Positions 29,079-48,616 of a stretch of 49,531 nucleotides of DNA are shown here, piece by piece (position 1 is the stretch's first letter; the number at the start of each line of letters is the position of its first letter). The stretch covers positions 1 to 49,531 of the forward strand of contig JALUYG010000246.1 in assembly GCA_027013105.1 (NCBI GenBank), in the 5' to 3' direction. The position numbers and the translations under genes are program-made. The notes below the pieces were generated by a model. The model was not told where the DNA came from. It was given only the letters and a program-made list of their open reading frames with translations, and ran no database searches. The stretch is from Mariprofundus sp. GTDB lineage: Bacteria > Pseudomonadota > Zetaproteobacteria > Mariprofundales > Mariprofundaceae.

Positions 29079-31859
29079 TTGACTGAAAAATTTGATTACC
29101 GACCAACTGTATTCCTGCCGAAAACGGATTTTCCGATGCGCGGCAACCTGCCGACCAACGAGCCGAAGCGCTTGCAGCAGTGGGAAGATGCAAAGTTGTA
29201 TCAACAGCTGCGCGCGGCGCGCAAGGATGCGCCGAAGTTTATCCTGCATGATGGCCCGCCCTATGCCAACGGCAGCATTCATATCGGTCACGCCGTCAAC
29301 AAGGTGCTCAAGGATATCGTGGTGCGCTCGCGCTCGATGCTCGGTTTCGATGCCCCCTATGTGCCGGGCTGGGATTGCCACGGCCTGCCGATCGAACTGA
29401 AGGTGGAAGAAAAATTCAAAAAGAAGAAGCGGAAGAAAGAGGATATCTCCGACTCCGAATTCCGTACCGCCTGTCGTGAATATGCGAGCGGACAGATCGA
29501 TGTGCAGCGCGAGGAGTTCAAACGTCTCGGCGTCATCGGCGACTGGGCCAACCCATATATCACCATGGACTACCATTTCGAGGCCAATACGGTACGCGAA
29601 ATCGGCAAGTTTCTCGCAGGTGGCGGCCTCTACAAAGGCGCCAAGCCGGTGCACTGGTGCGTCTCCTGCGCCACCGCGCTGGCCGAGGCCGAGGTGGAGT
29701 ATGAGGATCACACCTCCCACTCGATCTATGTAAAATTCGCTGCCGGCGAGGATCTGACCGATATCGCGCCGGAACTGAACGGCGACATCTCGATTGTTAT
29801 CTGGACCACGACGCCGTGGACGATCCCGGCCAATCTGGCTGTGTCGGTCGGCCCCGATTTCGAATATTCAGCCGTGAAAATCACCGATACCGGCGATAAT
29901 GACAACCTCAAAACCGGTGAAATCCTGATTCTGGCCGAGGAGTTGCGCGAAGGCGTGATGCGCGAGATTGGTGCAACCGGCACAGTCATCACCCGTTTCA
30001 GGGGCAACACACTCGACAAGCGCCGTTTCCGCCACCCCTATCTCGATCAAAATGCCCCCATCCTGGTCGGCGACCATGTAACGCTCGAAGCTGGCACCGG
30101 ATCGGTGCATACCGCCCCCGGCCATGGCCAGGAGGATTACGAGATCGGCATGAAATACGGCCTCAAAGCCTTTAATCCGGTTGGCGATACCGGCGTATTT
30201 GTCGAGGGCACCCCCATCGTCGAAGGCCGGCATGTCTATCAGGCCAATGCCATCATGGTCGAGCACCTGCAAAACTGCGGTGCGCTGCTGCAGACCAGCC
30301 AGATCAGCCACTCCTACCCGCACTGCTGGCGCTGCCACAAGCCGCTAATCTTCCGCGCCACGCCGCAGTGGTTTATCTCGATGGATCATAACGATCTGCG
30401 CAGCAAGGCGCTGGCAGCAATCAAAAAGACCGCATGGACGCCGGAATGGGGTGAGAATCGGATCAATGCCATGGTTGAGCAACGTCCCGACTGGTGCGTA
30501 TCCCGCCAGCGCAACTGGGGCGTGCCGATCACCGCTATCCGCTGCACTGCATGCGAATCGCACGCTGTAACCACGCCGGCGGTAGTGGAAAGCATCGCCA
30601 AACAGGTGGAGCAGGCCGGCGCCGATGTCTGGTTCGCCAAAGATGTGGCGGACTTTCTGCCTGAAGGAGCCACCTGCCCGGATTGCGGCGGTTCCGATTT
30701 CGACAAAGAGACCGACATCCTCGATGTCTGGTTCGATTCCGGCTCCACCCACGCCTGCGTACTGGAGCAACGCGCCGATTTGCGCAGCCCTGCCGATCTC
30801 TATCTGGAGGGCTCCGATCAGCATCGCGGCTGGTTCCAGTCATCCTTGCTGGAGAGCATCGGCACGCGCGGCGCGGCGCCGTTCAAGGGCGTTTTGACGC
30901 ACGGTTTCGTGGTCGATAAAAACGGCAACAAAATGAGCAAATCGCGCGGCAATGTGATTGCGCCACAGAAGGTTATCCAGCAGATGGGCGCCGATATTCT
31001 GCGTCTCTGGATTGCCGCCTCCGACTACTCGGCAGACATCCGAATCTCCGATGAAATCCTCAAGCAACTGGCCGAAGCCTATCGCCGCATTCGCAATACG
31101 ATCCGCTTTCTGCTCGGCAATCTGAACGGTTTTGATCCCAAGCACGATGGGGTTGCACTGGCCGATCGCGTGCCGCTGGATCAGTGGGCCATGCATCGAC
31201 TGTCGCGACTGGAACGCCATGTGCATCGCTGCAATGAAACCTACCAGTTTCACCGTATCCACCAGGAAATTCACAATTTCTGCGCCGTCGACCTGGGCGG
31301 CTTCTACCTCGATATCATCAAGGATCGCCTCTATTGCGATGCGGCCGATTCCACCCGCCGCGCTTCGGCCCGCGCCACGCTCTATGATCTGGCCGACACA
31401 CTGATCCGCCTGATCGCGCCGATCCTTCCATTTACAGCGGAGGAGGCGTGGGAATATCTGCCCGGCTCGGATGCAGGCAGCATCCACCTGCAAACCTTCC
31501 GCCCGGTCGCCGATATCGAGATTGATGAGCCGGCATGGGAAGCCTTCTTCGCCATTCGTGAACAGGTTAATGCCGCTTTCGATGAGGCCAAAAAGGAGAA
31601 GGTGGTCGGCTCCTCCATCGCCGCCGCCATCACCGTACCGGGGCTGGATGAGAGCTTCGCCGAATCCATTGGCGAAAGCTGGGAACAGCTGTTCATCGCC
31701 GCCAGCGTCACGCATGGCGACGCCATCACCATCAAGGCTGCGGAAGGGGTCAAATGCCCTCGCTGCTGGAATTTCGGCCCAGCTGCGCACCCCGATCACG
31801 CTGTGCATAACGAACTCTGCCCGCGCTGCTTTGATGTGGTTACCTCTGTTCATGACTGA
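29079..31859 (+). CDS. ileS: Isoleucyl-tRNA synthetase
   Basis: [18 protein letters not shown] (HIGH), [11 protein letters not shown] (KMSKS), C-terminal Zn motif CPRCWN...CPRC; TTG start with GAGG 7 nt upstream. Confidence 0.97.
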
Positions 31860-33342
31860 AACCATGCAGCCGAGCCATCAAGCTATTATTCAGGCTTTAA
31901 GCTTCCCCGATGATAGCTTGCCGGAGGACGCATTGCACAATGCCATCAAACATTATGACGACATTAAACCCGCATTGCACGCCGCCCTGAAACTCAGCAT
32001 CAATGAAATCAAAAATATAGAAGAACCTGCTGAAAAAGCTTACAAGCTGAAGTTTTACGCCATGTATCTGGCGGCGGAAACACGTGATATCGATGCCTTC
32101 CCTCTCATCCGTGATTATTTTTCCACGCAGGGAGAACAAGCGTGGGACTGCCTTGGCAATATATCCACCAGAGATATGGGACGAATTTTGGCCTCGGTGT
32201 GCAATGGCGATGCCTGCGCATTGAAGTCTTTTGCCGAGTTAGATGGCATGGACAGCTTTGCACGCATGTCCTGTTTAGATGCGATGGGCATTCTGATGTG
32301 CCAAAATGATTTTCCGCGTCAGAAACTGGTCGAATGGTTTCGTACATGGCTACGCAGCGATATGCTCAATCAACAGGAATATGGTTATCTGGCCAATATT
32401 TGTATGCTGCTTGCATTGAAGGAACTCAAGGAAGATTTGCTCGCCGCCCTGAAATCCGGACACCTTGATGCTGAAGCCATCACGATTGAAGATATTGAAG
32501 ATGAACTGCCGCATGCAGAAATTTCGGATTTTACCCGGCGATTGTTTGCTCCGGTGCATGATGTCGTCAATTTAATTGCTGAATGTAGCGCGCGGAGTTA
32601 TTTAACCGTCCTGTTTACCATGTTTGAGCGCGATGATTTTGATACGCTTATGCCCTTGTTTCAAAAGAACAGGGAAACCAAGGAAGTGGGTAAGTTTATA
32701 CCTGAATTTCTACATGGTTTCATGTTTGGCATTGTCATCACCCCCGCGCTGATATTGCCCAGCGAATGGTATCCAATCCTGTTTAACAATGGCATGCCAG
32801 AGTTTCAATCCGAGAAGGAGGACGAGGTTGCGCAACAAGGCTTACTACGCTTCTACAACCGATTGAATAATGATCGTCTTGATGGGTTCATTCAGAGCCC
32901 GTTCGATACGGCGAATAGTGTGGACAAAGAATTGACACCTGTGGCAAGAGAGTGGTGCCGGGGATTTGCGCGTGCCATTGCACTACGTCCGCAATACTGG
33001 CTGACGCAAGAAGATCCCCATTCCATCTCCGTTTTCACGGAGTCCATCACAACCATCATGGTACTGTCTGATCAACATAAGGCTGATGATCTTCTGATCA
33101 TGTCGGGTAAAAAAGTTACACCTGTAGAGCAGGAAAAACTACTGACAGGAAGCCTCGAAAATCTTCCATTTGCCATTAATACCTTGATCAATCATGCCTT
33201 CGACAGTGGTGCGGAATACCATCCCGCTGCAATGCATAAGCCGGTTCGCAGCACCAAGGTTGGTCGCAATGAACCCTGTCCCTGCGGCTCGGGCAAGAAA
33301 TTCAAAAAATGCTGTGGTGCTGCTGGTCGATCTGTGCATTAG
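31852..33342 (+). CDS. DUF1186 + UPF0149/YecA-like + SEC-C metal-binding motif protein
   Basis: MTETMQPSH... N-terminal DUF1186-like; [26 protein letters not shown]...[11 protein letters not shown] (UPF0149-like); C-terminal [19 protein letters not shown] (SEC-C). Overlaps the ileS stop by 8 nt. Confidence 0.8.
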
Positions 33343-33353
33343 CAGGAGAAACA

Positions 33354-34031
33354 ATGTCGTCATTTAATTATTCATCCCATGTGAAGGATTATCATCAATG
33401 CAAGAAACGCCTTGCTGACCAAATGGCCTCGCAAATGCTGGATTCCATGTCGCGGAAGGAAATGATGCGAGCTGCCAAAAAACTGCATATGGCACATAAG
33501 AACATTGTGGTGTGCGATAGCAGTGAAGAGTCTAATGCGCTGACTGAATTTGCGTTATTTTCACACCTTCACCCCTTTGGCAGCATAGCCTTGCGATGGT
33601 GCAACAGACAGCCGGCCCCCTCCAACGCCCTGGATCAATGTATCTTTACAGGGGTGCGGGAATCGTTCTATTCGATATTTAAAGTCCTGGAAGTCTTTCC
33701 TCGAAAAGGTGTGTTGATACAGGATTTGTACACGCAAAATACATTCCCAATTATGGATATCGGCATGAGTTTATCAGCAGTCGTAAATCTGGGGGTAGCG
33801 AGCAGAATCATCCCCATTAGCGATTGGGGTGTATTCACCGGTGCGGTTATCCCTCTGGCTAATCAAACATATCAGGCATTACTTCCGTATTTGCAAAAGA
33901 ACATCCACGAGAAATTGATAGGGCAGAACCGTCCTTTTTCTTCAAAAAAAGAGATGCTCTTCCAATCTACCATTATCCGTGCGGCCATGGATAATGGAGG
34001 ATTTAAAAATGTTGCTTATCAAGATATTTAA
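33354..34031 (+). CDS. Hypothetical protein (225 aa)
   Basis: ORF starting MSSFNYSSHVKDYHQ, 11 nt after the upstream stop; no family recognised. Confidence 0.6.
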   Translation: MSSFNYSSHVKDYHQCKKRLADQMASQMLDSMSRKEMMRAAKKLHMAHKNIVVCDSSEESNALTEFALFSHLHPFGSIALRWCNRQPAPSNALDQCIFTGVRESFYSIFKVLEVFPRKGVLIQDLYTQNTFPIMDIGMSLSAVVNLGVASRIIPISDWGVFTGAVIPLANQTYQALLPYLQKNIHEKLIGQNRPFSSKKEMLFQSTIIRAAMDNGGFKNVAYQDI

Positions 34032-34052
34032 CACGTCAAACATACATTAATC

Positions 34053-35974
34053 ATGTCCATCAGACATACACTAAAGCACTATTTCGGCTTTGATGATTTT
34101 CGTGAAGGTCAGGCCGAAGTGGTTGAAGCAATCGTTGAAGGCAAGTCAGCGGCAGCTATTTTTCCGACTGGTTCGGGAAAATCATTGTGCTATCAACTGC
34201 CTGCACTGCATTTACCACATTTGACACTGGTCGTGTCACCACTATTGGCACTGATTCAGGATCAACTGGAATTCTTGCAAGCCCAAAACATCCCCGCTGC
34301 CAGTATTGACAGCACCCAGAGCCGCGAGCAATCCAGTGCGGTGATGCAGCAGGTCAGGCAGGGACAGATCAAAATCCTGATGATTTCGGTTGAGCGGCTG
34401 AAAAACGAGCATTTCCGCAACTTCATCGCCCGTGTTCCCGTATCCCTGCTGGTGATTGACGAAGCGCACTGCATCTCCGAATGGGGGCATAATTTTCGTC
34501 CCGATTATCTGAAACTGCCGCACTACCAGCAGGCACTAAACATCCCGCAAGTGCTTCTGCTTACTGCCACCGCCACGCCCGCTGTCATCAGGGATATGCG
34601 CCAGAAATTCGCCATTGAACCGGCCAACGTCATCACCACCGGCTTTTATCGCGCCAATCTGCATTTGCATGTTCACGCCTTGCCCGAAGCGGACAAAGAC
34701 CGTTATCTGATTGAATGGTTACAGGCGCATCGTGGTCAGTCCGCCATTGTTTATGTCACCCTGCAACACAGTGCGGAAGATGTGGCGGCCAGATTAATCC
34801 AGTCGGGCATCAGTGCGCACGCCTATCATGCCGGCATGGGGCATGATCTGCGTCAGTCCATTCAACAGCAATTTATGCGCGGGGAATGTGACTGCATCGT
34901 CGCCACCATTGCCTTTGGCATGGGCATCGACAAAAACGATATTCGCCATGTGATTCACTACGATTTGCCGAAATCGATTGAGAATTACAGTCAGGAAATT
35001 GGCCGCGCCGGTCGCGACGGCTTAGCTGCTGACTGCCTGATGCTGGCCAATCGCAACGGCGTGCATGTGCTGGAAAATTTCGTCTATGGCGATACGCCGG
35101 AACTGGCTGGCATTCGCAGCGTCTTGCTGGAAATCAGCCAGGCCGGCTCGAAGTGGGAAGTGATGGTCAACACGCTCTCCCGCCTTTCCAATATTCGCCC
35201 CTTGCCGTTAAAAACATTGCTCGTCTATCTTGAAATGCGCCACATTATCAAACCCTTGTACAGCTATTATGCCGATTATCGTTACAAGTTACTGATTTCC
35301 GAACAGGATTTACTGGCGCATTTTCAGGGCGAGCGGCGAAGCTTTGTACAAGCGATTCTGGATGGTTCAGAGCAGGCGCGGGTTTGGGCTACTGTGGATA
35401 TTGATGCCATCGCCAGCAGCTATCGGGGTGATCGCGCCCGCGTGGTGACGGCTCTGGAGTATTTCAGCGACAAGCAATATATCGAACTGCAAAGCAAACA
35501 GATGACCGATGTATTTGAAGTAATCGGTACGGATTTTAATATTGAGAAACTCGCCGATGAACTGTTTGCTTCGTTCAAGCAGAAGGAATCCAACGAAATC
35601 GACCGCATCAGCCAGATGATTGCATTTTTCGAGAGCAGCGACTGTCTCAGCCTCAAACTGGCACACTATTTTGGCGACCAGCGTCAAACAAAGCATTGCG
35701 GCCACTGCTCTGTTTGTAAGGGGGGTCGCGCATCTGCAACACTCCCCAGCGACTTGCATCTCTCCACACTCACCGACTTCAACCCGCATGAACTATGCCG
35801 GGCGGTTCGAGCAGCAAGCGATGAACCATTATCCAACGATATGCTGACCCGTTTTTATGCGGCATCAGCAACCCGCTATTCACCCGCCTCAAAGCACGCA
35901 GCTTGCCAGACTTTGGGCGTTTGGAGCAATATCGCTATCAGGATGTAAAATCCTGGCTTGCGTCAGCGATCTGA
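34053..35974 (+). CDS. RecQ family ATP-dependent helicase; C-terminus frameshifted in this sequence
   Basis: FPTGSGKSLCYQLPAL, VIDEAHCISEWGHNFRPDY, LLTATATP, IATFAFGMGIDK-type motif, IGRAGRDG, CGHCSVC. Frame 0 ends at 35948; a -1 shift at T5 (35852-35856) restores RFLCGISNPLFTRLKARSLPDFGRLEQYRYQDVKSWLASAI* ending at 35974. Confidence 0.92.
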
Positions 35975-35977
35975 ACA

Positions 35978-36259
35978 ATGGGACAACATGGCAAAGGTAA
36001 GAAATACTCTGCTGCACAAAAGCGTGCCCGAAAAAAAGCCAAGGCAGAGCGACAGAAAAAGTATAAGTGGGTTTTTATGCACGGAAAGAAGGTCAGGATC
36101 AAAATACAAAGACCGCCAACAATAGAAGGAATGGATGTCGATGAATTTATTCGACGCAATGCTGATCCCATCTGGTTGCATCAGAATGAACTGTGGCACC
36201 TTATGGATATAAATAATGAGGAAGAGCTTGAACTGGATGCTATTGATGATCCATATTGA
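35978..36259 (+). CDS. Small hypothetical protein (93 aa), basic N-half and acidic C-tail
   Basis: MGQHGKGKKYSAAQKRARKKAKAERQKKYKW...NNEEELELDAIDDPY; starts 3 nt after the restored recQ stop. Confidence 0.55.
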   Translation: MGQHGKGKKYSAAQKRARKKAKAERQKKYKWVFMHGKKVRIKIQRPPTIEGMDVDEFIRRNADPIWLHQNELWHLMDINNEEELELDAIDDPY

Positions 36260-36292
36260 TATGTTCAAGAGCAAGCAAGGGAGTCTGGGGTA

Positions 36293-38581
36293 ATGCTGAA
36301 AAGTCTGGAGCAATGGCGGGCAGAATGCAGCCAGCAACAACTGACGGGGTTTGATCATAAATTGCACCTTCAATGCGGCAGCAGCGTGATCAGCCAGGCC
36401 AACCTGAAGGCGCGCTACCATGGCAGTTACCACCGCGCCCTGATCAACAGCAAAGTGTTGCATGACGCGGTCAAAACGCGGGACTATATCCGGGGCAGTT
36501 CGTTGTGGGGCAGTGATATTGATGCAGGCAAGGAATTCTGCACTGAGCTGGCTGATCAGGATGGGAGTATGCCGGTCAATCAAGCGCACCAGCAGTATGC
36601 CAAATCCATTCCCTTGTTGCAGGAGCGCGGCATTGTATTTGAATGCGATGGCCGCTATCACCTGCCTGCCGAGATCGTCGTTGAATTTCGCAGCAAGGCC
36701 GAGGGCGATAGCTGGATTACGCTGACAGCCAAAACATCGCTGCCCATGCTGCATCAACTGGTGCCGCAAGATGCGCAAAACAGCATGCTCAAACCCAGGC
36801 CAATTCGCAATGAACTGGCCACATGGCTGGTGCTGCACGGCCAGCAGGCGCGATCCGCCAATCTGGTCGCCCAACTGGATGATTCGGACTGGGCGATTTT
36901 GCTAAGCCTGCAGCAGGGCGACCTGAATGATTTCGAAACCCTGCAACAACATTATTCTGATTTGCCGCCGGTTGAGGTTACCCGGCACTATTATTACAAT
37001 CATCAAACAGAATACAGCCTGCGCAAGTCGCTGGAGCAACATATACCGGAACAGTTGTGCAAACTCTGTCGCCTTGGCCTGATCGGGATTATCACCCACA
37101 ATGGTGATAATCAATCGGCAACATTAACCCTCTGTAAAGAAGCGAGAGCAGCCTTGAAACCGCACTGGGCAGGCGTGAAAAAACGCATTGCTGCGCAACT
37201 GGAACAGCACTGGCAGGCAAAACCATGCGACATCGAATACCCTGCTGCATGGTCAATGGATCAACAGATCTGGCGTGTATGGATCGTGCTGCATTTTCTG
37301 CCGCTGGGGATCACCCAACAGGGGAAGATGCGAAAAAATGATCTGAAAAAAATACTCTCCGTGTTAAAAGAGGAGGATCTTGGCCGCATTGAATTTCTGA
37401 TCATCTGCATGTTAAAGGGAGAGCTCCTTAAACAGGATGGTGACAAGTTATTACCATTGCCGATCAACTGGCCAGCATGGCGCAAAGCAACCCTGGCCAA
37501 CATTACCGAAGCTATTCGCGGCTGGGAAAACTGGAGCAAACAGGATGAGCAACAGGCGTTAACCCTATTATCCAAACTGCCCGTGGAATGCTGGTTGAAA
37601 GTAGATGAAGTAATGGAGTGGTTGCGAGCGCAATCGGGCAGAAGAATTGTTATGGCCGATTGGAACCGCTTGTTTTCCGGCTATCAGAGCATTCTACTGC
37701 ATCACCTGAATGCGCGTCAGCGCTGCATCTACCTGTTGCCGGAGTTTCGAGCCTTGCTGAAGAATCAAGTGGTTAATTTTACCGCACCCGGCTGGCATGG
37801 CGCCGACAAGAAGGCCAAAATCCACGGCTTTATTTCCGCCTCCGGCGAGATCCAGCTACCGCCAGATTGCAATCACCGCATTCTGGACAAGCTTGCTGCA
37901 TTCTGTTCCATCTCTGCTGTGGAACAGATGATTACCCTGCAACTGGATCAGAAGGCCCTGCAGCGCATGGGCAGCAACAAAGCCAAACTGAAAAAAACGC
38001 GGGCGGCGCTGGAATCGCTGCAATCTCCCCTGCCCCAGGCCGTGAGCTATGTGTTTGATAAGCAACAGTCGCAAAAGCCGGTCGCCGACGTTGCCGCTGC
38101 CAGCTTGGTTTTTGTACTCCATGATATTTCCGCCATGCATAAGTTGCGTAAAACCGGTTTCGCGTTTTCTCAACCCTTCAAGGATAGGCCGGAAATTGTC
38201 CTGCTCGATGCATCGGCTGATGCTCACGCCTTGCTCAAAGCATGTGCGGATGATGGCATTATGCTCAACACGCTGATCAAACCGGTTGAATGGATTAGCG
38301 GCACGGCTTCGATCAATGCATGGATGCAATATGATGTGGACAGAGAAAATGAATGGCTCGAAATCGCCTACCAGAAAACACGCAGCAGCAAACCCAAACA
38401 GCTATTCGCCCGCATCGAAAATGACTATTACGGCTCCATCCGCATTCAGGGCGCACGCAAAACCAAACAGGGTTATGTCATGCTGAAAAGCACAGTACAG
38501 CTACAACCCAAACATATCTTGCGCTTAAGAGAGCTGGATGATGCCGAAATCGGCGAATTAGATCTGGATTTACTGCCATGA
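36293..38581 (+). CDS. Helicase-associated protein with Helicase_C_3 (XPB/Ssl2 N-terminal-like) domain
   Basis: C-terminal half ISASGEIQLPPDCNHRILDKLAAFCSI...LQSPLPQAVSYVFDKQ resembles Helicase_C_3; ATGA overlap with the XPB gene. Confidence 0.6.
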   Translation: MLKSLEQWRAECSQQQLTGFDHKLHLQCGSSVISQANLKARYHGSYHRALINSKVLHDAVKTRDYIRGSSLWGSDIDAGKEFCTELADQDGSMPVNQAHQQYAKSIPLLQERGIVFECDGRYHLPAEIVVEFRSKAEGDSWITLTAKTSLPMLHQLVPQDAQNSMLKPRPIRNELATWLVLHGQQARSANLVAQLDDSDWAILLSLQQGDLNDFETLQQHYSDLPPVEVTRHYYYNHQTEYSLRKSLEQHIPEQLCKLCRLGLIGIITHNGDNQSATLTLCKEARAALKPHWAGVKKRIAAQLEQHWQAKPCDIEYPAAWSMDQQIWRVWIVLHFLPLGITQQGKMRKNDLKKILSVLKEEDLGRIEFLIICMLKGELLKQDGDKLLPLPINWPAWRKATLANITEAIRGWENWSKQDEQQALTLLSKLPVECWLKVDEVMEWLRAQSGRRIVMADWNRLFSGYQSILLHHLNARQRCIYLLPEFRALLKNQVVNFTAPGWHGADKKAKIHGFISASGEIQLPPDCNHRILDKLAAFCSISAVEQMITLQLDQKALQRMGSNKAKLKKTRAALESLQSPLPQAVSYVFDKQQSQKPVADVAAASLVFVLHDISAMHKLRKTGFAFSQPFKDRPEIVLLDASADAHALLKACADDGIMLNTLIKPVEWISGTASINAWMQYDVDRENEWLEIAYQKTRSSKPKQLFARIENDYYGSIRIQGARKTKQGYVMLKSTVQLQPKHILRLRELDDAEIGELDLDLLP

Positions 38582-40236
38582 CCTACCATCCCGAACGTCC
38601 TCTCATTGTGCAAGGCGATCATTCGCTACTGCTGGAAACGCATAATCCGCAATTTAATGCCGCACGCGATGCCATCTCCCCGTTTGCCGAACTGGAAAAA
38701 TCGCCCGAACATATTCACAGCTATCGTCTCAATCCGTTAAGCCTGTGGAATGCCGCTGCTGCCGGGCATAGCCTGGAAGAGGCCGAAGCGGCGCTGCACG
38801 ACTACAGCAAATACGCCATTCCGGACAATGTACTGGAGGAGATGCGGCGCACCTTTGCCCGTTACGGGCAACTCATTCTCACCAAAGATGATGAACAGAC
38901 CCTGCGATTAACCATCTCTGATCCGTTCATTGCCGCACAGGTCGCCAAAGAAAAAAGCCTGGCCGATAAAATCCGCCAGCAAATTGCCGACGATACTTTC
39001 CTGATTGATCCGGCCCAGCGCGGCGTGCTCAAACATGCACTGATTAAACTGGGCTTTCCTGTTGATGATCAGGCCGGATTCAAAGATGCGGGTCAGTTTG
39101 AGCTCAGCCTGCGCAACTATACGTTATCCGATAAAAACCCATTTGAGCTGCGCGAATATCAGCATAAGGCGGTGGAATCCTTTGTCGCATCCGGTTCACA
39201 TGGTGTGATTGTGCTGGCCTGCGGGGCAGGGAAAACAGTAGTCGGCATGGCCACCATGGCGCGTATCGGCATGACCACGCTGATCATCACCCCAAATACC
39301 GCAGCCGCCCACCAGTGGCATGCCGAACTGCGCGATAAAACCCACATTGATACCGCTGACCTGGGCGAATTCACCAGTTCCCGCAAAGACATTCTGCCGG
39401 TCACCATCGCCACCTATCAAATGCTCACCTACCGTTCGCAAAAAGATGGCGACATGCCCAATATGGATCTGATTACCAAACATGATTGGGGACTGATAAT
39501 TTTCGATGAGGTGCATGTGCTGCCGGCCCCGGTATTTCGCGCTGTATCCGAGATTCAGGCGCGCCGCAGATTGGGGCTGACTGCTACCCTGATCCGCGAA
39601 GATGGCTTAGAGAAAGATGTATTCTCCCTGATCGGCCCCAAACGCTACGATCTGCCCTGGCGCGAACTGGAGCAATCAGGTCATATTGCTGAAGCGCACT
39701 GTGTTGAGATCCGCGTACCGATGTCCAAAGACGATCACATGGCCCACGCCGTCGCTGAAGATAGACGCAAAGCCTACCGCATTGCGGCTGAAAACAGGGT
39801 CAAAGATACGGTGGCACAATCCCTGATCGAAAAACACGATGGCGAAGGCATTCTGGTCATCGGCCAATATATCAAACAACTCGAACGTATCGCTGCCACA
39901 CTTGGCGCGCCGGTCATCACCGGACGCATGAGCAGCAAGGAGCGCGAACGCCTGTACGCTGCCTTCCGGGCCGGCGATATCCGCCTGCTGGTGGTATCCA
40001 AAGTCGCCAATTACGCCATTGACCTGCCCGATGCTTCGATTGCCATCCAGATTTCCGGCAGCTTTGGTTCACGGCAAGAAGAAGCCCAGCGGCTCGGTCG
40101 AATTTTAAGACCCAAAGGCGGCCCGGCCTATTTTTACACGCTGGTATCTGACGATAGCGAAGAACTAAAATTCGCCATCAATCGTCAACGTTTTCTGGCT
40201 GAACAGGGTTACGATTACCTGATTGAAGACTGGTAA
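38578..40236 (+). CDS. XPB/Ssl2-type SF2 DNA helicase
   Basis: ELREYQHKAVESF, VLACGAGKTVVGMATMA, IIFDEVHVLPAPVFR, LGLTATLIREDG, DLPDASIAIQISGSFGSRQEEAQRLGRILRPK. Confidence 0.92.
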   Translation: MTYHPERPLIVQGDHSLLLETHNPQFNAARDAISPFAELEKSPEHIHSYRLNPLSLWNAAAAGHSLEEAEAALHDYSKYAIPDNVLEEMRRTFARYGQLILTKDDEQTLRLTISDPFIAAQVAKEKSLADKIRQQIADDTFLIDPAQRGVLKHALIKLGFPVDDQAGFKDAGQFELSLRNYTLSDKNPFELREYQHKAVESFVASGSHGVIVLACGAGKTVVGMATMARIGMTTLIITPNTAAAHQWHAELRDKTHIDTADLGEFTSSRKDILPVTIATYQMLTYRSQKDGDMPNMDLITKHDWGLIIFDEVHVLPAPVFRAVSEIQARRRLGLTATLIREDGLEKDVFSLIGPKRYDLPWRELEQSGHIAEAHCVEIRVPMSKDDHMAHAVAEDRRKAYRIAAENRVKDTVAQSLIEKHDGEGILVIGQYIKQLERIAATLGAPVITGRMSSKERERLYAAFRAGDIRLLVVSKVANYAIDLPDASIAIQISGSFGSRQEEAQRLGRILRPKGGPAYFYTLVSDDSEELKFAINRQRFLAEQGYDYLIEDW

Positions 40237-40237
40237 T

Positions 40238-41443
40238 ATGGGGTTAAATATGGATAACCACATCTGGCGCGACACGCCCGCATTGGTGGAGGAAACTTTG
40301 GCCACCTATGGCATGTGGGATGCCGTATCATTTTTACTACTCAGCCACCGCCTGCGTCAGAGTAATTATGAAGCCTGGCGCATGGGCGATGCGGCTTGCC
40401 TGCAGGATGTGATTTCCGGCAGCAAACAGGATGCGCTGGAGATGCTGGAAGCAGCATTGCTGCATACCAGAAGTTTGGACCTGGCCAGCGCAGCGTTTAC
40501 CTGGAGCGGATGGGGAAAACAGTCCGGCAAAACACTGCAACTGTTTTACGATCATCAGCTAAATGCCCGGTTTCAGCGATGCTTTTCACCCAGAAGCAAC
40601 AGACCGCAGCTTGATCTGTTTATGGATGCCCCGCATACCATTTTACGCAACCGGCTGCGCCAGGCACTGCTGGATCGAAGCGATGAATACGATGCGCTCT
40701 TGCATCGGGCCCAACATGAAATCGCTGAAGAACCGGCGCTGGCTCGGCTCAACATCATCCGAAACGCACTCTTATCACCGCGCATCGAAGATCCCGTCGC
40801 ATGGTTCATCCATTTGAATGAAACCGTTGCGCCAGCAGCCCATGAAGAGTTTTCGCATCGTGCCATCGATATCATGGCGCCCCTGTGGCGCGCCCTCGCC
40901 AACGCCATGCGTGATACCCCATTCAACCCTGCCCATCCAGAACAGCATGCCAGCCACGCCTTGTTACTGGCGCATGACTGGGAGGATTGCCAGGCTCAGG
41001 TGCTGCAAATCCCCAACTGGCACGCGTACCCCTGCCTGCATGAACGACGCATTGCAGCACTCGCATCCATGCGCGAACACGATATGGAAATCGCAGGATG
41101 GATGGTATATTGCTGGTGCCACCCTGATTCAGCCAGCCAGTCACTGGATCAAGCTGACCTGCACGGCTGCGGACTGCATCGTTTATGGCAACAATTTTCG
41201 CAGCTGGAGACTGCGCCCGGCGTTGAATACTTTCCCGCCCTGATTGCACTTCGGTGCGGTGCGAATACACCGCAATCAACCATCTTCGAACATGCCGCCC
41301 ACACATCAGGATGGCGGAGCTATCAACAGCTCACCGAATTACTGGCCCGTGAACAGGGTAACGGAATTGATATTTCAGGACGCAGCGCCCTGCAAAAAAG
41401 AAGCCCATGGCTTTTTCAGGCATTTATGGCGACCCGCCGTTGA
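40238..41443 (+). CDS. Hypothetical protein (about 400 aa) in helicase cluster
   Basis: ORF directly after the XPB stop, start MGLNMDNHIWRDTP; overlaps the next ORF; no family recognised. Confidence 0.6.
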   Translation: MGLNMDNHIWRDTPALVEETLATYGMWDAVSFLLLSHRLRQSNYEAWRMGDAACLQDVISGSKQDALEMLEAALLHTRSLDLASAAFTWSGWGKQSGKTLQLFYDHQLNARFQRCFSPRSNRPQLDLFMDAPHTILRNRLRQALLDRSDEYDALLHRAQHEIAEEPALARLNIIRNALLSPRIEDPVAWFIHLNETVAPAAHEEFSHRAIDIMAPLWRALANAMRDTPFNPAHPEQHASHALLLAHDWEDCQAQVLQIPNWHAYPCLHERRIAALASMREHDMEIAGWMVYCWCHPDSASQSLDQADLHGCGLHRLWQQFSQLETAPGVEYFPALIALRCGANTPQSTIFEHAAHTSGWRSYQQLTELLAREQGNGIDISGRSALQKRSPWLFQAFMATRR

Positions 41444-44400
41444 GCCATTATCTCAATCCGGAGGATGCGGTGCATAAGGTTGCCGTTTTTGTCGATCTGG
41501 AGATTCACCCGGAAACACAGAAACTGCTCAAAATCGGCGCCTGGCGTGCGCATGATGACGCGTCGTTTCGCCGTCAGGGCAAGTTTAATCAAACGGCCGC
41601 ATTGCACGAACTGTTGGCCTTTATCGGCAAGTCCCGCTTTATCATCGGCCACAATATTGCGCAGCATGACTGGCCATATTTATGTGGGAAAGATGCCGCC
41701 TTTGGAAAGCTTTCTCTCTGTCTGATTGATACGCTGGTGCTCAATCCGCTGGCTTTTCCGGCCAACCCCTACCACCGGCTGGTGAAGGATTACAAACTGC
41801 AACGCGAATCGGTCAATGACCCGGTTGAAGATTGCAAGCAGACCGCCATTCTGTTTACCGACCAATGCGCCACATTCAGGCAACAAGCCGATTTCAGCGC
41901 TGTCTTCGCGCTGTTGCTGCTCAACAGCGGAGCCGCCTACCCAACCCTGTTCAATATGCTGCTGAATGCCCCTGTGACAGCCTCGGTCGCCAAACAATGC
42001 ATTGATGCCTGCCTGAATGAAGATGCCGTTTGCGCACAGTCGCGCCACCTGATTATCGATGAAATTCGCAGCAACGATGCCACACGCCAGCGCGCCATGG
42101 CTTATGCGCTGGCATGGCTGAATACGGCGGGCGCAAATTCGGTGTTGCCTGCCTGGGTGCGCCATCAGCACCCCGAACTGTCCGATATGCTGGATCGCTT
42201 GCGCAATCAGGCATGCGGCGAATCCAATTGCCGTTATTGCCATGCCCACCACAATCTGGAAGCCAGCCTGACGCAGTTCTTCGGTTATGAACAGTTTCGC
42301 CATTTCGGCGCCTCCGATACAGATGGGGGTGCCAAAGAACCCTTACAACGGCGCATTGTCGCCGCCGTTGCCAGCGCCACGCCGACGCTGGCTATCCTGC
42401 CCACCGGTGGCGGCAAATCGCTCTGCTATCAACTGCCGGCCATGATGATGGCGCGCAATCGTGGCCTGCTGAGCATTATTATTTCACCGCTGCAATCGTT
42501 GATGAATGATCAGGTGGGGCAATTGCAGCAACGCGGTTATCAATATGCGGCGGCGCTGAACAGCAGTTTAACCATGCCGGAGCGTCATCGCGTGCTCGAA
42601 GGCATCCGCATGGGTGATATCCACCTGCTCTACATCGCGCCGGAACAACTGCGCAACCGTTCTTTTATCAGTGCAATTGAAAGCCGGGAAATCGGTCAGT
42701 GGATTATTGATGAAGCGCATTGTCTGTCGAAATGGGGGCACGATTTCCGGCCGGACTACCTCTATATCGGCAAATTCGTCGCTGCCTTTTCAAAACGCCA
42801 ACAGCAGCGCATACCACCCGTCCACGCCTTTACCGCCACCGCCCGGCTCGATGTGATAGAGGAGATCCTCGATCATCTGGAGCAATCGCTGGATGTTCGT
42901 TTGTCTCTGCTCAGCGGCGGCCACCAACGCAGCAATCTCGACTATCAGGTATTGCACTGCCCGGCGCAGCAGAAACGCGAGCAGGTGTTAAGCCTGCTGC
43001 AAGAGCAGCGGCAATTCACCGGCGATGGCGCTGTCATTATTTTTTGTAACCGCAGAAAATATACTGAGGAAATGGCTGAATTCCTGAGCAATAACGGTAT
43101 CAAAAGCGATTTCTTCCATGCCGGACGCGATCCGCATAGCAAGCGGGCGGTGCAGCAGGCATTTATGGATGGAGACATTGCCGTGATGGCCGCCACCAAC
43201 GCTTTCGGCATGGGGGTGGATAAAGCCGATGTGCGTTTGGTGATTCACGCCCAGATTCCCGATTCGCTGGAGAATTATCTACAGGAAGCCGGACGCGCCG
43301 GACGCGATGGCGAGCCGGCACGCTGTATTTTGTTGTTCGATGAGGCCGATGTGGATAAACAGTTTGAGATGCGGCGCAGCCAGCAGATTGAAATGCGTGA
43401 TTTCGTCGCCCTGTTTGAAGCGATTCGCAAGCAGTGCCGGGCATTCAAGCAACGTGGAGTCAGCGAAAACACCATTCAGGCCAGCAGCGGTGATATTCTG
43501 CGCATCGCGCATAGCTCAGATCATCAGGACGATGCGCCCGGATTCGGCGCCGAAGACTGGCAATACGATACCAAAGTGCGCACCGCCATCGCCTGGCTGG
43601 AAGTAGCGGGCTTGCTGGAGCGGCAGGAAAATCGCACCGGTGTAATTGAAGGCACATTCAAACTCACCGCCATGGATCTGATTCGCAGCCAGTTGAACAA
43701 GCAACAGATCAGCGCCGCCGATACCGAACGATGGTTGCGGGTGGCTCACGCCATCATGCAGCATGAGCAGAGCGATACCATTAACGCCGATCAACTGGCC
43801 GAACAGACCGGCCTTGATCCGAAAGCTGTGTTTCGCGCCATTACAGGACTGCAGCATGCCGGCGTGATGGATCATGATATGTCGCTGGTGGCATGGCTCA
43901 AGGCGCATGTGGCCGGAGATAGTCGCATGATGCTGGCGCAATACGCGGCGCTGGAATCCACCCTGTTCGATTTGATCCGTGATGCAATGCAGGGCGATCA
44001 TGAAAGCCCATTTCAACTGAACATCGTTCAGGCCTGCCATCTGCTGCGCGAGGCGAGCGGTCAGGCCGATATTTCCCCGCCGCTGGTCTTGCAACTGTTA
44101 TCGCTGTGGACACGGCTGGATAAACTGGTGCGCAGCACGCCGGTCGGGCGGGATATGCACCGCTTGACATGGAAACGGGATTTCGAGCAGGCGGCGGAGC
44201 AGATCAAACAGCGGCAGCACTGTTCGGATGTCAGCATCGATCACCTCTATACCCGGATTCCGGACGGCGAGAAAGGCCATTTGCGCATCCCTTTTAAACT
44301 CGGCGCGTTGCAAGATGCGTTGGAAAACAATTTAACCACCCGCCATCTGAGCGGGCTGGACAATCGTTCCGAACAGGCGCTGCTGGCGCTGCAACAGCAT

Positions 44401-46521
44401 CATTTAATCGGGCTGGAGAGCGGCGCGGCGATTTTCCATACGGCCATGACCCTGCATATTCCCAAAGGTGCAAAGCGACCGGGCAAGCGCGCCTTTCAGC
44501 CGCTGGAGAAGCATTACAAGGCGCAGATCAGACAGATTCATGTGATTCGCGAATGGGCCTTGCGCATGGCTGATGGCAAGCAAGCATCGGCAAAAGCCTT
44601 GCTCAATGATTATTTTGATCTGACTGAAAAGAATCTGCTGCAACGCTATTTTGCCCGCCGCAGCAAGCAGAGTCTGGAAATTCCGGCCAGCAGGAAACGC
44701 GTCAACGATATTATTGGCGACGACGCTTTATCTGCCACCCAGCGTGATATTGTCACCCAATCCAGCCAGCAGAATATGCTGGTGCTGGCCGGCCCCGGCG
44801 CCGGCAAAACGCGTTTGATTGTACACCGGGTAGCGTGGCTGTCATGCATCCGGCGACAAGCCCCGGAGAGCATTCTGGTGCTGGCATTCAATCGCGCCAC
44901 GGTCAGCGAATTGCGTACGCGCCTTGGCCGCGATGATATGCTGGGAAAACAGGCATGGCGTTTGCAAATTCACACCTATCACAGTCTGGCCATGCGCCTG
45001 CTGGGCGAATTGCCGCCTGAAGATCATGATGATTTTCAAAACTGGTCGGATGGACTGATGCGAAGAGCAGTGGCGCTGCTCGAATGCCCCCATGCAGATG
45101 ATGAGATGGATGAGGAGCCCGGCGACGATCTGAGGCAGCGTTTGACTGCCGGATTCCGCTTTATTCTGGTGGACGAATATCAGGATATTAACGAGGCTCA
45201 ATACCGTTTCCTCTCCGCACTGGCCGGGCGTACGCTGGAGAACGAGGCCGAACAATTAAGCATCTTTGCCGTCGGCGATGACGATCAAAATATTTATGCA
45301 TGGAACGGTGCAGAAAATCGTTATATTCACCAGTTTGAGCGCGATTACAGCGCCCGCATTGCCTATCTGACGGAGAACTACCGCTCATGCCCGGCGATTA
45401 TTGAGGCCGCCAACCGTTTCATTGCACAACACCCGGATCGCCTGAAGGCCGTCTATCCGGTTACCGCCGCCCATCCCGACCTGCCCGGCAGCGTCAGTGT
45501 ATATCAGGGCGCACTGGCCGCGCTGCATCAAAAAGCGCTGGACTGCTGTGTTGATTTGATGGCGCAACAGACTCCACCGGAGCGCATCGCCATCCTCTGT
45601 CGCCAGCATCAGGATTACGAACCCATCGCAAGATTATTGCGCTCGGCCAAATTACCCATTCAGATCAACCGCAACGACACCCCCTACCGCTGGGATCGTC
45701 TGCGCGAAGTGCATGCCATGACGCGCATATGCGAGGGGCACGGCATGCTCAGCGCAGGCGAGATTCGGGCGGCGTGGCTGGCGCTGCCGGAATCGATTCA
45801 GCTGCACCCGTCCGTGACGCCGTTATGGGACTGGCTGGCGTCGCATACGTCAGAGCGTATCGTACGACCTGCGCAGGAGTGGCGCAGCGAGCTATGGGAA
45901 TTATCCAAAACCGAGGGCGCTAAAACCGGTCATGGTATCTGGCTGGGCACCATGCACAGCGCCAAGGGGCTGGAATTTGACAGCGTTATCGTCTTTGCCG
46001 GAAAACCCGGCCATCAGGATAGTTTCTGTGAAGAACTGCGCCTGCGTTATGTCGCCATGACCCGCGCCGAACGCAATCTGATGCTGATGCAGGATACTGG
46101 AAACTGGTTCACACACCTCGGTATTGAAGCTGAATCACTGCCGCTGGAAGCAAGAGAGTCAGGGCAATCCAGCGATGTATTTTACTGCGGCATGAAAGAT
46201 GTGGATATCGATTTCGCCGGGCGACTGGTCGAGGCGATCAACACCACCGCCCTGCATGAAAATGACAAACTGGAGTTCAACCAAGCCAATGGCACATTGC
46301 ACTGGCAGCAACAGGTAGTTGGCAGGCTCAGCCGCCGCGCCCTGCAACGATTGCAACAAAAAACGAAACAGGGCTGGGGCATCAAAGCGGTCAGGGTGCA
46401 GGCGATTGTGCGCCGCTACCGCAACGATGCCTCGGATGAACAATACATCGCCCTGTGCAGGCAACAGGCATGGTATGTGATCCTGCCCAAGATATTGTTG
46501 GTCTACGGCGGTTATCAATGA
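41407..46521 (+). CDS. Exonuclease-like + RecQ helicase + UvrD/PcrA helicase fusion (1704 aa)
   Basis: N-term FVDLEIHP / FIIGHNIAQHDWPYL / NDPVEDCKQT (DEDD exonuclease-like); RecQ LPTGGGKSLCYQLPA, IDEAHCLSKWGHDFRPDY, GRAGRDGEP; UvrD LAGPGAGKTRLIVHRV, LVDEYQDINEAQY, VGDDDQNIYAWNGA, GTMHSAKGLEFDSVIVF, YVAMTRAERNL. Confidence 0.92.
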   Translation: MAFSGIYGDPPLSHYLNPEDAVHKVAVFVDLEIHPETQKLLKIGAWRAHDDASFRRQGKFNQTAALHELLAFIGKSRFIIGHNIAQHDWPYLCGKDAAFGKLSLCLIDTLVLNPLAFPANPYHRLVKDYKLQRESVNDPVEDCKQTAILFTDQCATFRQQADFSAVFALLLLNSGAAYPTLFNMLLNAPVTASVAKQCIDACLNEDAVCAQSRHLIIDEIRSNDATRQRAMAYALAWLNTAGANSVLPAWVRHQHPELSDMLDRLRNQACGESNCRYCHAHHNLEASLTQFFGYEQFRHFGASDTDGGAKEPLQRRIVAAVASATPTLAILPTGGGKSLCYQLPAMMMARNRGLLSIIISPLQSLMNDQVGQLQQRGYQYAAALNSSLTMPERHRVLEGIRMGDIHLLYIAPEQLRNRSFISAIESREIGQWIIDEAHCLSKWGHDFRPDYLYIGKFVAAFSKRQQQRIPPVHAFTATARLDVIEEILDHLEQSLDVRLSLLSGGHQRSNLDYQVLHCPAQQKREQVLSLLQEQRQFTGDGAVIIFCNRRKYTEEMAEFLSNNGIKSDFFHAGRDPHSKRAVQQAFMDGDIAVMAATNAFGMGVDKADVRLVIHAQIPDSLENYLQEAGRAGRDGEPARCILLFDEADVDKQFEMRRSQQIEMRDFVALFEAIRKQCRAFKQRGVSENTIQASSGDILRIAHSSDHQDDAPGFGAEDWQYDTKVRTAIAWLEVAGLLERQENRTGVIEGTFKLTAMDLIRSQLNKQQISAADTERWLRVAHAIMQHEQSDTINADQLAEQTGLDPKAVFRAITGLQHAGVMDHDMSLVAWLKAHVAGDSRMMLAQYAALESTLFDLIRDAMQGDHESPFQLNIVQACHLLREASGQADISPPLVLQLLSLWTRLDKLVRSTPVGRDMHRLTWKRDFEQAAEQIKQRQHCSDVSIDHLYTRIPDGEKGHLRIPFKLGALQDALENNLTTRHLSGLDNRSEQALLALQQHHLIGLESGAAIFHTAMTLHIPKGAKRPGKRAFQPLEKHYKAQIRQIHVIREWALRMADGKQASAKALLNDYFDLTEKNLLQRYFARRSKQSLEIPASRKRVNDIIGDDALSATQRDIVTQSSQQNMLVLAGPGAGKTRLIVHRVAWLSCIRRQAPESILVLAFNRATVSELRTRLGRDDMLGKQAWRLQIHTYHSLAMRLLGELPPEDHDDFQNWSDGLMRRAVALLECPHADDEMDEEPGDDLRQRLTAGFRFILVDEYQDINEAQYRFLSALAGRTLENEAEQLSIFAVGDDDQNIYAWNGAENRYIHQFERDYSARIAYLTENYRSCPAIIEAANRFIAQHPDRLKAVYPVTAAHPDLPGSVSVYQGALAALHQKALDCCVDLMAQQTPPERIAILCRQHQDYEPIARLLRSAKLPIQINRNDTPYRWDRLREVHAMTRICEGHGMLSAGEIRAAWLALPESIQLHPSVTPLWDWLASHTSERIVRPAQEWRSELWELSKTEGAKTGHGIWLGTMHSAKGLEFDSVIVFAGKPGHQDSFCEELRLRYVAMTRAERNLMLMQDTGNWFTHLGIEAESLPLEARESGQSSDVFYCGMKDVDIDFAGRLVEAINTTALHENDKLEFNQANGTLHWQQQVVGRLSRRALQRLQQKTKQGWGIKAVRVQAIVRRYRNDASDEQYIALCRQQAWYVILPKILLVYGGYQ

Positions 46522-46570
46522 CGTGGAGGCACACGATGAATAAAACATACGGAAACTTGTAATAAGTAAA

Positions 46571-46591
46571 ATCCAAGTATAATATTTGGAT
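46571..46591 (+). promoter_or_regulatory. Palindrome overlapping a TATAAT -10 just upstream of the AAA ATPase start
   Basis: ATCCAA-gTATAATat-TTGGAT; ATG at 46592. Confidence 0.4.
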
Positions 46592-47827
46592 ATGAATGGT
46601 TTGAATCGAGATCAATCGCAGGTTATCAATCAACTACTCAACCTGTTTCCGGTTGTCCTGATTGTGGGAGCACGGCAGGTTGGCAAAACGACGCTGGCGA
46701 AAATGTGTCGTCCTGACTGGCATTACTTCGATCTGGAGCGCGGTAGCGATTTCGATTTTATCACCAACGACTTCGATTTCTTTTTCCGTGAATATCCCGC
46801 GCATGTCATCATTGATGAGGCTCAGGAATTACCACAGCTGTTTCGTGAATTGCGCGGCGTGATTGATGCTGATCGTACACAGAAAAACCGATTCATCCTT
46901 ACCGGTTCCAGCTCACCTGAAATGCTTTCCGGCATTTCCGATTCGCTTGCCGGGCGTGTTGCTATTGTTGAGCTTGGCACATGCAAGCGCAATGAAATTG
47001 CCGGTGAGCCGCTGTCCGGGTTTTATCAGATATTCACCAAGCCCATTGAGGCCAACGACTTGCAAATACTGAAGCACCTCTCCGTAAGCAGTGGCGATTT
47101 GTTATCATCAGTGCTGCGAGGCGGATATCCCGAGCCGGTTCTGGCCGACCATCCCGATGCATTTTTTGCATGGATGGATAACTACTTCAAAACCTATATC
47201 GCCAGTGATGTACGAAGGCTGTTTCCTCGCCTGGATATGGTGAAGTACCGTCGTTTCATCTCAATGCTGGCCAGCCTGTCCGGCACGATTATCAATAAGG
47301 CTCAGCTCGGGCGTGCCATTGACGTATCTGAAGTCACCATCCGTGACTATCTTGATATTGCGCATCAGACATTGATCTGGCGCAATATTCCATCCTATGC
47401 CGGCACAGCCGCCCGCGCAGTTGTAAAAATGCCGAAAGGCATATTGCGCGATTCAGGGCTGCTGAACTACCTGGGCAACATCACCACCCGCGAGCAACTG
47501 GTGCGCTCGCCACTGGTCGGGCAGATATTCGAATCGTTTGTGATTGAAGAAATCCTCAAGGGCATGCATGCCAGCAATATCGCCAAATGGGATTATTCCT
47601 ATTACCGCACCCGCAATGGCGCCGAGATAGACCTGATTCTGGAAGGAAGCTTTGGCCTGATGCCGATTGAAATTAAATTCGGCACATCCACCCGCCTGAA
47701 GCAGCTCATTGCATTGACGCGCTTTGTCCAGGAACAGCAACTGCCCTTTGGCATTGTCATTAACCAATCCACTGAAGTTCGCATGCTCAGCGATTTCATC
47801 ATACAGGTTCCGGCCAGCGCGATTTAA
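46592..47827 (+). CDS. AAA_14/DUF4143 ATP-binding protein
   Basis: LIVGARQVGKTTLAKM, VIIDEAQELPQLFRELRGVID, FILTGSSSPEM; C-terminal YYRTRNGAEIDLILEG (DUF4143). Confidence 0.9.
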   Translation: MNGLNRDQSQVINQLLNLFPVVLIVGARQVGKTTLAKMCRPDWHYFDLERGSDFDFITNDFDFFFREYPAHVIIDEAQELPQLFRELRGVIDADRTQKNRFILTGSSSPEMLSGISDSLAGRVAIVELGTCKRNEIAGEPLSGFYQIFTKPIEANDLQILKHLSVSSGDLLSSVLRGGYPEPVLADHPDAFFAWMDNYFKTYIASDVRRLFPRLDMVKYRRFISMLASLSGTIINKAQLGRAIDVSEVTIRDYLDIAHQTLIWRNIPSYAGTAARAVVKMPKGILRDSGLLNYLGNITTREQLVRSPLVGQIFESFVIEEILKGMHASNIAKWDYSYYRTRNGAEIDLILEGSFGLMPIEIKFGTSTRLKQLIALTRFVQEQQLPFGIVINQSTEVRMLSDFIIQVPASAI

Positions 47828-47878
47828 CACAGGGCCAATCAGCATCCAATGAACAGCCCGCAAATTATAGAACCAGTG

Positions 47879-48616
47879 TTATTGCCTTGTATCCAGATCT
47901 GCCGGCTTACGCGATAATGTTTTGTTGCCGGAGAACATGGCGGAGATCAGCCCGCTGCCTTCACGGCTATCCAGACGAATCACCACAACAACATGCAGCA
48001 CAATCATCACCAGCAAAACAAAGAAGAGGTAGTAATGGATTTCACCGTAGATATGCTTGAAATCCAGCAGTGCCTTGAGTTTTTCGGCATCGACGCCTGT
48101 TTTGTCGTACGGTTTGAGCGTGGCGGGATCAACGCCTTCCGCCGCCACCTGTGCTGCGAACATCGAACCGAAGGGCGGATAATAGACATCCGTGCCGGCG
48201 CGAATCAGCCCGGTGGCCGCTTGCGTCATCAGCAGCAACATCAATACCACCACAGCCAGTCGCCCCATCGGATTGTGGCCGAGAAACTGCTGACGCTCAC
48301 CGCGTTTGATACTGGAGAGATAAGCAGACATCGCCTCACGAAAACCCCTGCCCGGCACAATGGCGCTCCAGCGTGCAAATCGATTGCCGATGAAACCCCA
48401 AACCAATCTGAACAGCAGATTCAACACGAACACATAACCGATCACGACATGCAGTTCTTTAATCGCCACCTTGGCATCCAGACTGACGATACCGAGCTCT
48501 TTTTTATAAAGCATCAGCATCCCCACCAGCGCCAGTAGCACCACGCTGATAAAGTTCACCCAGTGAAACAGCCGTGTCGGCGCATCCCATACTTTATATC
48601 GTTGCAACATTTCCAC
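47879..48616 (-). CDS. Cytochrome b561/b6-type membrane protein
   Basis: VWDAPTRLFHWVNFISVVLLA, HVVIGYVFVLNLLFRLVWGFIGNRFARW, YLFFVLLVMIVLHVVVV. Confidence 0.88.
   Translation of the reverse strand: MEMLQRYKVWDAPTRLFHWVNFISVVLLALVGMLMLYKKELGIVSLDAKVAIKELHVVIGYVFVLNLLFRLVWGFIGNRFARWSAIVPGRGFREAMSAYLSSIKRGERQQFLGHNPMGRLAVVVLMLLLMTQAATGLIRAGTDVYYPPFGSMFAAQVAAEGVDPATLKPYDKTGVDAEKLKALLDFKHIYGEIHYYLFFVLLVMIVLHVVVVIRLDSREGSGLISAMFSGNKTLSRKPADLDTRQ

Follow-up and report, generated by a model that had tools for sequence, protein, structure and literature searches.

A window of 49,531 nucleotides of Mariprofundus DNA (positions 1 to 49,531 of contig JALUYG010000246.1, a metagenome-assembled genome, GCA_027013105.1) contains, at positions 41407-46521 of the forward strand, a single uninterrupted reading frame that begins with ATG and encodes a protein of 1704 residues. 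A preliminary description, made from the sequence alone, had proposed that this protein joins an exonuclease-like domain to RecQ and UvrD helicases, and subsequent placement of the domains by Pfam, NCBIfam and PDB sequence searches bore out both the exact reading frame and the domain order: from N- to C-terminus, a DnaQ-like exonuclease domain, a cysteine knuckle, a RecQ core, an inter-helicase region, a UvrD core and a conserved C-terminal region. A chance or misassembled fusion was ruled out by intact homologues in five phyla. The features of the gene are given below, with conservation counted on an alignment of 42 full-length homologues and with structures modelled by AlphaFold2 (AF2).

41407..46521, + strand: exonuclease-like/RecQ/UvrD triple fusion (reading frame and family alignment)
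41476..41946, + strand: DnaQ-like exonuclease domain, residues 24-180 (profile match to TREX1-like and DinG exonucleases; AF2)
41494..41502, + strand: ExoI motif, D30-L31-E32 (D and E in 42/42)
41668..41670, + strand: D88 of ExoII, GHNIAQHD (42/42)
41815..41832, + strand: ExoIII motif, N137-D-P-V-E-D142, with Asn at the position of the DEDDh catalytic His (N 40, S 2, H 0; D 42/42)
42214..42240, + strand: Cys knuckle, C270-x4-C275-x2-C278 (40, 40 and 41 of 42 members)
42337..43386, + strand: RecQ core, residues 311-660 (Walker A 334, DEAH 435, aromatic-rich loop WGHDFRPDY, motif VI QEAGRAGRD; Pfam, NCBIfam, PDB, alignment)
43387..44721, + strand: inter-helicase region, residues 661-1105 (winged-helix/helix-turn-helix sequence matches; AF2; Foldseek)
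44722..46101, + strand: UvrD core of superfamily 1A (SF1A), residues 1106-1565 (GPGAGKT 1129, DEYQD 1256, GDDDQNI 1290, ENYRS 1323, HSAKGLEFD 1517, YVAMTRA 1548; Pfam, NCBIfam, PDB, alignment)
46102..46518, + strand: conserved C-terminal region, residues 1566-1704 (aligned in 20 members)

The ATG at 41407 lies within an upstream open reading frame (ORF; 40223-41443), with which the gene has 37 nucleotides in common, and residues 1-14 are of low confidence; the real start may therefore lie slightly downstream.

The complete RecQ and UvrD motif sets that had been read from the sequence proved intact (GxGK[ST] and DEAH in the first motor; GPGxGKT, DExQD and GDDDQ in the second), and the key ATPase residues of both are essentially invariant. 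The RecQ half matched the Pfam families DEAD (1.2e-24, residues 312-486) and Helicase_C (6.1e-21, residues 525-635), scored 308 bits against the NCBIfam model recQ_fam TIGR00614 (cut-off 219.8), and carries motifs I-VI of superfamily 2 (SF2) together with the aromatic-rich loop DEAHCxSxWGHDFRPxY. The UvrD half matched UvrD-helicase (1.7e-39) and UvrD_C (3.9e-17), and displays the Walker A, DExQD and GDDDQ elements and the motifs IV, V and VI of the UvrD/Rep type. No Pfam match to RecQ_Zn_bind (the four-cysteine zinc subdomain of RQC) or to HRDC was found in the fusion, and no clustered cysteines occur past residue 660; the cysteine knuckle, which probably binds metal, sits ahead of the RecQ core, and a winged-helix part after that core is conceivable. 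RecQ-family and UvrD-family helicases alike travel 3'-5' along single-stranded DNA, and by analogy the two motors of the fusion would be expected to share that polarity.

The region between the motors, previously taken for an unassigned linker (approximately residues 690-1090), is conserved across the family, with a strongly conserved D-T-[KR]-V-x-T-A block, and is mostly folded in the AF2 model (mean predicted local distance difference test score, pLDDT, of 75.5). Sequence matches to winged-helix and helix-turn-helix proteins were weak but consistent, and Foldseek returned local winged-helix matches to BlaI (probability 0.99, root-mean-square deviation 2.5 over 78 columns), CtsR, LmrR and RPC62, none of them at E<=0.001. 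Residues 661-1105 are, on these sequence and fold matches, probably tandem winged helices; the models were built from just 9-10 sequences, and their fold matches are weak. The C-terminal region gave no Pfam or PDB match; a likeness to HIRAN that was suspected by eye received no profile support.

A single-sequence Pfam search placed the exonuclease domain under every cut-off (DNA_pol_B_exo1 at E=0.034). A profile of 20 homologues did match exonucleases among PDB sequences: Plex9.1, which is TREX1-like, with a related exonuclease (E=6e-4 to 2e-3), and that of DinG (E=1.4e-3). The AF2 core is confident (strands at residues 26-33, 40-47 and 52-57, plus helices, with strand pLDDT of approximately 90-96), with low values at residues 116-133. 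A fold search, which bears on whether the domain has an RNase H-like fold, again gave Plex9.1 as the top PDB match, but weakly (E=0.012; TM 0.48 of target).

Examination of the active site divided the earlier claim of a DEDD-like exonuclease into two parts. The four metal-ligand acids (D30, E32, D88 and D142) are retained in 42/42 homologues, as are G81, H82, N83, D108, K127 and P139, so that the motif conservation on which that claim depended is present; the ExoII motif reads G81-H-N...D88. A textbook DEDDh enzyme, by definition, further possesses a water-activating histidine five residues before the last aspartate (PMC11194089), and that position is occupied by asparagine in 40 members, by serine in two and by histidine in none. 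The proposal of processive unwinding accompanied by degradation is therefore not to be assumed; the earlier alternative, a sensor of foreign or forked DNA, may hold. An HxxxxD arrangement is retained in two remote relatives, from Hymenobacter swuensis and Rhodobacter sp. CZR27, while a Deinococcus homologue has asparagine; the simplest reading, subject to where the tree is rooted, is loss of the histidine within the main family. The ratio of nonsynonymous to synonymous substitution (dN/dS) in the exonuclease part is 0.04-0.17 in those close pairs that gave an estimate, which indicates that the domain is under purifying selection and is not decaying; amino-acid change is faster there than in the RecQ core. 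Between the fusion gene of the window and its orthologue in another zetaproteobacterial genome (G022, locus L110), dS is approximately 0.6-0.8 at the 5' side, across the exonuclease and the helical region (41476-42336), and 0.16-0.34 elsewhere, a pattern suggestive of recombination or of an exchanged domain at that side.

These observations bear on an alternative in which the N-terminal domain is dead as a catalyst and serves to bind 3' ends, so that the protein would act as a dual-motor helicase and nothing more. Only the exonuclease step is at stake here, and the reading can be combined with a role in defence, in repair or in the service of a mobile element. It draws on the replacement of the general base in 42/42 members, and on the strongly lowered activity of MrfB when its His258, termed required, is changed to alanine (PMC11194089). 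Against it stand the four invariant metal ligands and the purifying selection upon them. A substitute residue or a water chain might moreover serve, as in the DEDDy exonucleases, where another residue fills the role of the histidine. The odds of a dead domain appear somewhat short of even; judged from sequence, the metal ligands favour cutting at 3' ends, and the missing histidine may render it slow, conditional or absent.

The same architecture is found in 42 full-length members from Pseudomonadota, Bacteroidota, Bacillota, Cyanobacteriota and Campylobacterota, and an identical domain order in a divergent Deinococcota protein of 1618 residues; the family is present, patchily, in at least six phyla. 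Because the RecQ parts of the 42 members formed one clade relative to 28 other RecQ sequences (with a modest node support of 0.64), a single fusion event followed by horizontal spread is probable. Sampling of genomes recovered the fusion in 14/399 Pseudomonadota (a sample that over-represents the kin of the window), 13/297 Bacteroidota and 10/250 Bacillota, or approximately 4%, in 0/149 Acidobacteriota, and in 2/23 genomes of the genus Mariprofundus itself. All of the exonuclease-domain matches in Bacteroidota, and five of the ten in Bacillota, lie in open frames of approximately 1600-1730 residues, the other five being in shorter frames. Searches of plasmids (tblastn) gave 24 records at >=80% coverage, from hosts that include Allochromatium, Thiothrix, Cereibacter, Rhizobium, Croceicoccus, Sulfitobacter, Paracoccus, Nostoc, Scytonema, Bacteroides and Aliarcobacter, where the gene either has no annotation or is labelled simply a RecQ (or UvrD) helicase; chromosomal copies also occur, including in single-contig assemblies. 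The gene is accessory, not core. A viral origin was considered and dropped: no full-length match was present in the phage collection, and the IMG/VR contigs that carry four full-length members and a truncated one mix phage and host genes.

Two loci depart from the single-chain form. On a plasmid of Rhodobacter sp. CZR27 (L197:3042-10443), a gene encoding a cold-shock domain and an HxxxxD-type DEDD exonuclease is followed by a 134-residue gene and then by a RecQ-UvrD protein that has no exonuclease; no further copy with the exonuclease in trans was found in plasmids or in 298 genomes, and the arrangement rests on that one plasmid. In Hymenobacter swuensis (L195:2284-10441), the exonuclease resides in a protein of 1421 residues ahead of a UvrD gene; since the break falls inside the RecQ core, at a 17-nucleotide ORF overlap, it may represent a frameshift, a sequencing error or recoding rather than a natural split.

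We favour the interpretation, with a probability of roughly one half, that the fusion is a mobile accessory defence enzyme, acting as a helicase-nuclease or a sensor against foreign or abnormal DNA. It is supported by: (i) the conserved architecture, with invariant active-site acids and ATPase residues; (ii) the accessory distribution and carriage on plasmids; (iii) the separate exonuclease gene in CZR27; and (iv) the presence of defence genes beside several members. Lamassu genes LmuA and LmuB adjoin the fusion at one locus (L117), a PsyrTA pair (RecQ-like PsyrT and PsyrA) lies 152 nucleotides downstream in a member from the Bacillota sample (L171:14462-17739), and a type IIG restriction-modification system is nearby at a third (L118); a type I restriction-modification system adjoins the Allochromatium plasmid member, and a type I-D CRISPR system lies within 5 kb of that from Thiothrix. 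These named systems are the solid part of the defence context. When neighbours of 16 chromosomal members were compared with control segments from those genomes (E<=1e-25), 119 PADLOC families were matched among 128 neighbour proteins and 35 among 139 control proteins, a ratio that is no test statistic because the models overlap each other.

In such an enzyme, two 3'-5' motors tethered through the probable winged-helix region would load onto invading or abnormal DNA at its ends, tails or forks, open the duplex and strip it of bound proteins, and hand the 3' end to the N-terminal domain. That domain, binding metal ions at the end, might then trim it (slowly or conditionally, since its general base is an asparagine) or else hold and sense it. 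Motors of the same polarity could run in tandem along one strand, or could work on both arms of a fork; in either case the exonuclease fold would sit at the 3' end. A more specific version, rather unlikely, would make the family a new class of single-protein immune device. Motors from two superfamilies would read DNA structure, and the metal-binding exonuclease domain, its catalytic histidine exchanged for asparagine, would either sense 3' ends or act as a gated nuclease on foreign DNA.

Several points weigh against a role in defence. With the catalytic histidine missing throughout the main family, the protein may not degrade DNA. Redundant models inflate the PADLOC family counts, defence genes may be enriched around mobile genes in general, and several members adjoin ordinary genes. 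Searches of known defence model sets, PADLOC included, gave the fusion no full-length match, and the partner genes of a known anti-phage system were not seen with it. Among 427 neighbour ORFs outside Zetaproteobacteria no conserved partner gene was found, and only a few small recurrent groups appeared, in three loci.

In the window, the fusion closes a run of seven co-directional genes located 3' of ileS: a SEC-C/UPF0149-like gene, a 240-residue ORF, RecQ, a 762-residue ORF, XPB, a 406-residue ORF and the fusion. Two features of that run precede the fusion.

36293..40236, + strand: cassette of the 762-residue gene and a bacterial XPB helicase (NF045503, 804.6 bits against a cut-off of 610)
40223..41443, + strand: 406-residue ORF, which overlaps the start of the fusion by 37 nucleotides (ORF list)

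The 762-residue protein has no Pfam, NCBIfam or PADLOC match, and its gene overlaps that of XPB; in G022 three tandem, diverged copies of it (71, 48 and 36% identical) precede XPB. Because the relative of the 406-residue ORF in G022 adjoins the XPB and 762-residue genes, that ORF is probably part of the same cassette. Two further zetaproteobacterial genomes, G022 and G255, also have the cassette of XPB and the 762-residue gene beside the fusion. Among 16 Mariprofundus regions 3' of ileS, it was found in six, RecQ in one and the fusion in none; the region (31800-47900 in the window) is a variable site in that genus, holding RecQ, the XPB cassette or other content. Four zetaproteobacterial relatives have lspA 16-101 nucleotides downstream of the fusion, and an insertion between ileS and lspA was considered for the window; that designation was dropped because no lspA was found beside ileS in the Mariprofundus genomes, and only the variable site was kept. 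At 31471-33342, the DUF1186/UPF0149/SEC-C protein has a listed start that falls inside ileS, so its true start is probably further downstream, at about 31850. An AAA_14/DUF4143 ATPase directly follows the fusion (46586-47827) and matches the PADLOC candidate PDC-S01 (2.1e-91).

A role in repair or replication restart, in which the enzyme remodels and trims stalled forks or 3' flaps of host or plasmid DNA in the manner of WRN, DinG or MrfA/MrfB, is rather less likely than defence. The enzymes nearest to it in function work in repair: DinG acts at forks, where it degrades recessed 3' ends (PMC12525004), and the helicase MrfA and exonuclease MrfB cooperate in mitomycin repair (PMC11194089). The position of the fusion after RecQ and XPB genes in the window points the same way, but a patchy occurrence of approximately 4% and carriage on plasmids are unlike core repair. 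In Mariprofundus, moreover, the XPB cassette also occurs where the fusion is absent, and no fusion outside Zetaproteobacteria was found to have it as a neighbour.

It is improbable that the protein instead serves the plasmid or integrative element that bears it, in replication, establishment or the overcoming of host nucleases. Many copies reside on plasmids, some near replication and partition genes (as in Aliarcobacter), and there are the members on IMG/VR contigs; however, chromosomal copies exist as well, and no fixed link to replication or transfer genes was seen. A role for the fusion as one component of a helicase system built from several genes, the adjacent RecQ, XPB, 762- and 406-residue genes among them, was suggested by the co-directional, overlapping genes of the window and the adjoining cassettes in G022 and G255, but was rejected as very unlikely because fusion and cassettes occur apart, such neighbours being absent in other phyla and the cassette standing without the fusion at 6/16 Mariprofundus sites.

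Comparison with known systems places the protein among helicase-nuclease combinations that underlie both genome repair (WRN, DinG) and immunity. PADLOC models for GajB of Gabija and DpdF of Dpd match its UvrD half and its RecQ half, respectively, but these matches are local to generic helicase cores, and no GajA or Dpd partner genes were seen. RecBCD and AddAB likewise bring two helicase motors and a nuclease to DNA ends, with other motors, separate subunits and a RecB-type nuclease. MrfA and MrfB combine a helicase and a DEDD exonuclease acting jointly, but are two proteins, with a different helicase family and with His258 in place. The DinG of Bacillus and Staphylococcus, with its N-terminal exonuclease, unites a bacterial DEDD exonuclease and an SF2 helicase-like chain, but its single motor is of the XPD type. 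WRN, whose helicase was among the PDB matches, places a DnaQ-fold exonuclease (of the DEDDy type, and active) ahead of a RecQ core in one chain, but has no UvrD motor and possesses the RQC zinc and HRDC domains not seen in the fusion. Whether the protein was an already well-characterized repair enzyme was asked of the open-access literature, where no description of such a fusion was found; since subscription papers and preprints lay outside that coverage, the family is provisionally undescribed, hidden behind the label 'RecQ family ATP-dependent DNA helicase'. Because each part, and helicase-nuclease fusion as such, is already known, it is a variant rather than a new kind of protein, and what seems new is the combination: in one gene, a test bed for cooperation between SF2 and SF1 motors of the same polarity and a nuclease fold, and a natural test of whether a DEDD active site still functions, or serves in sensing, once its histidine is gone.

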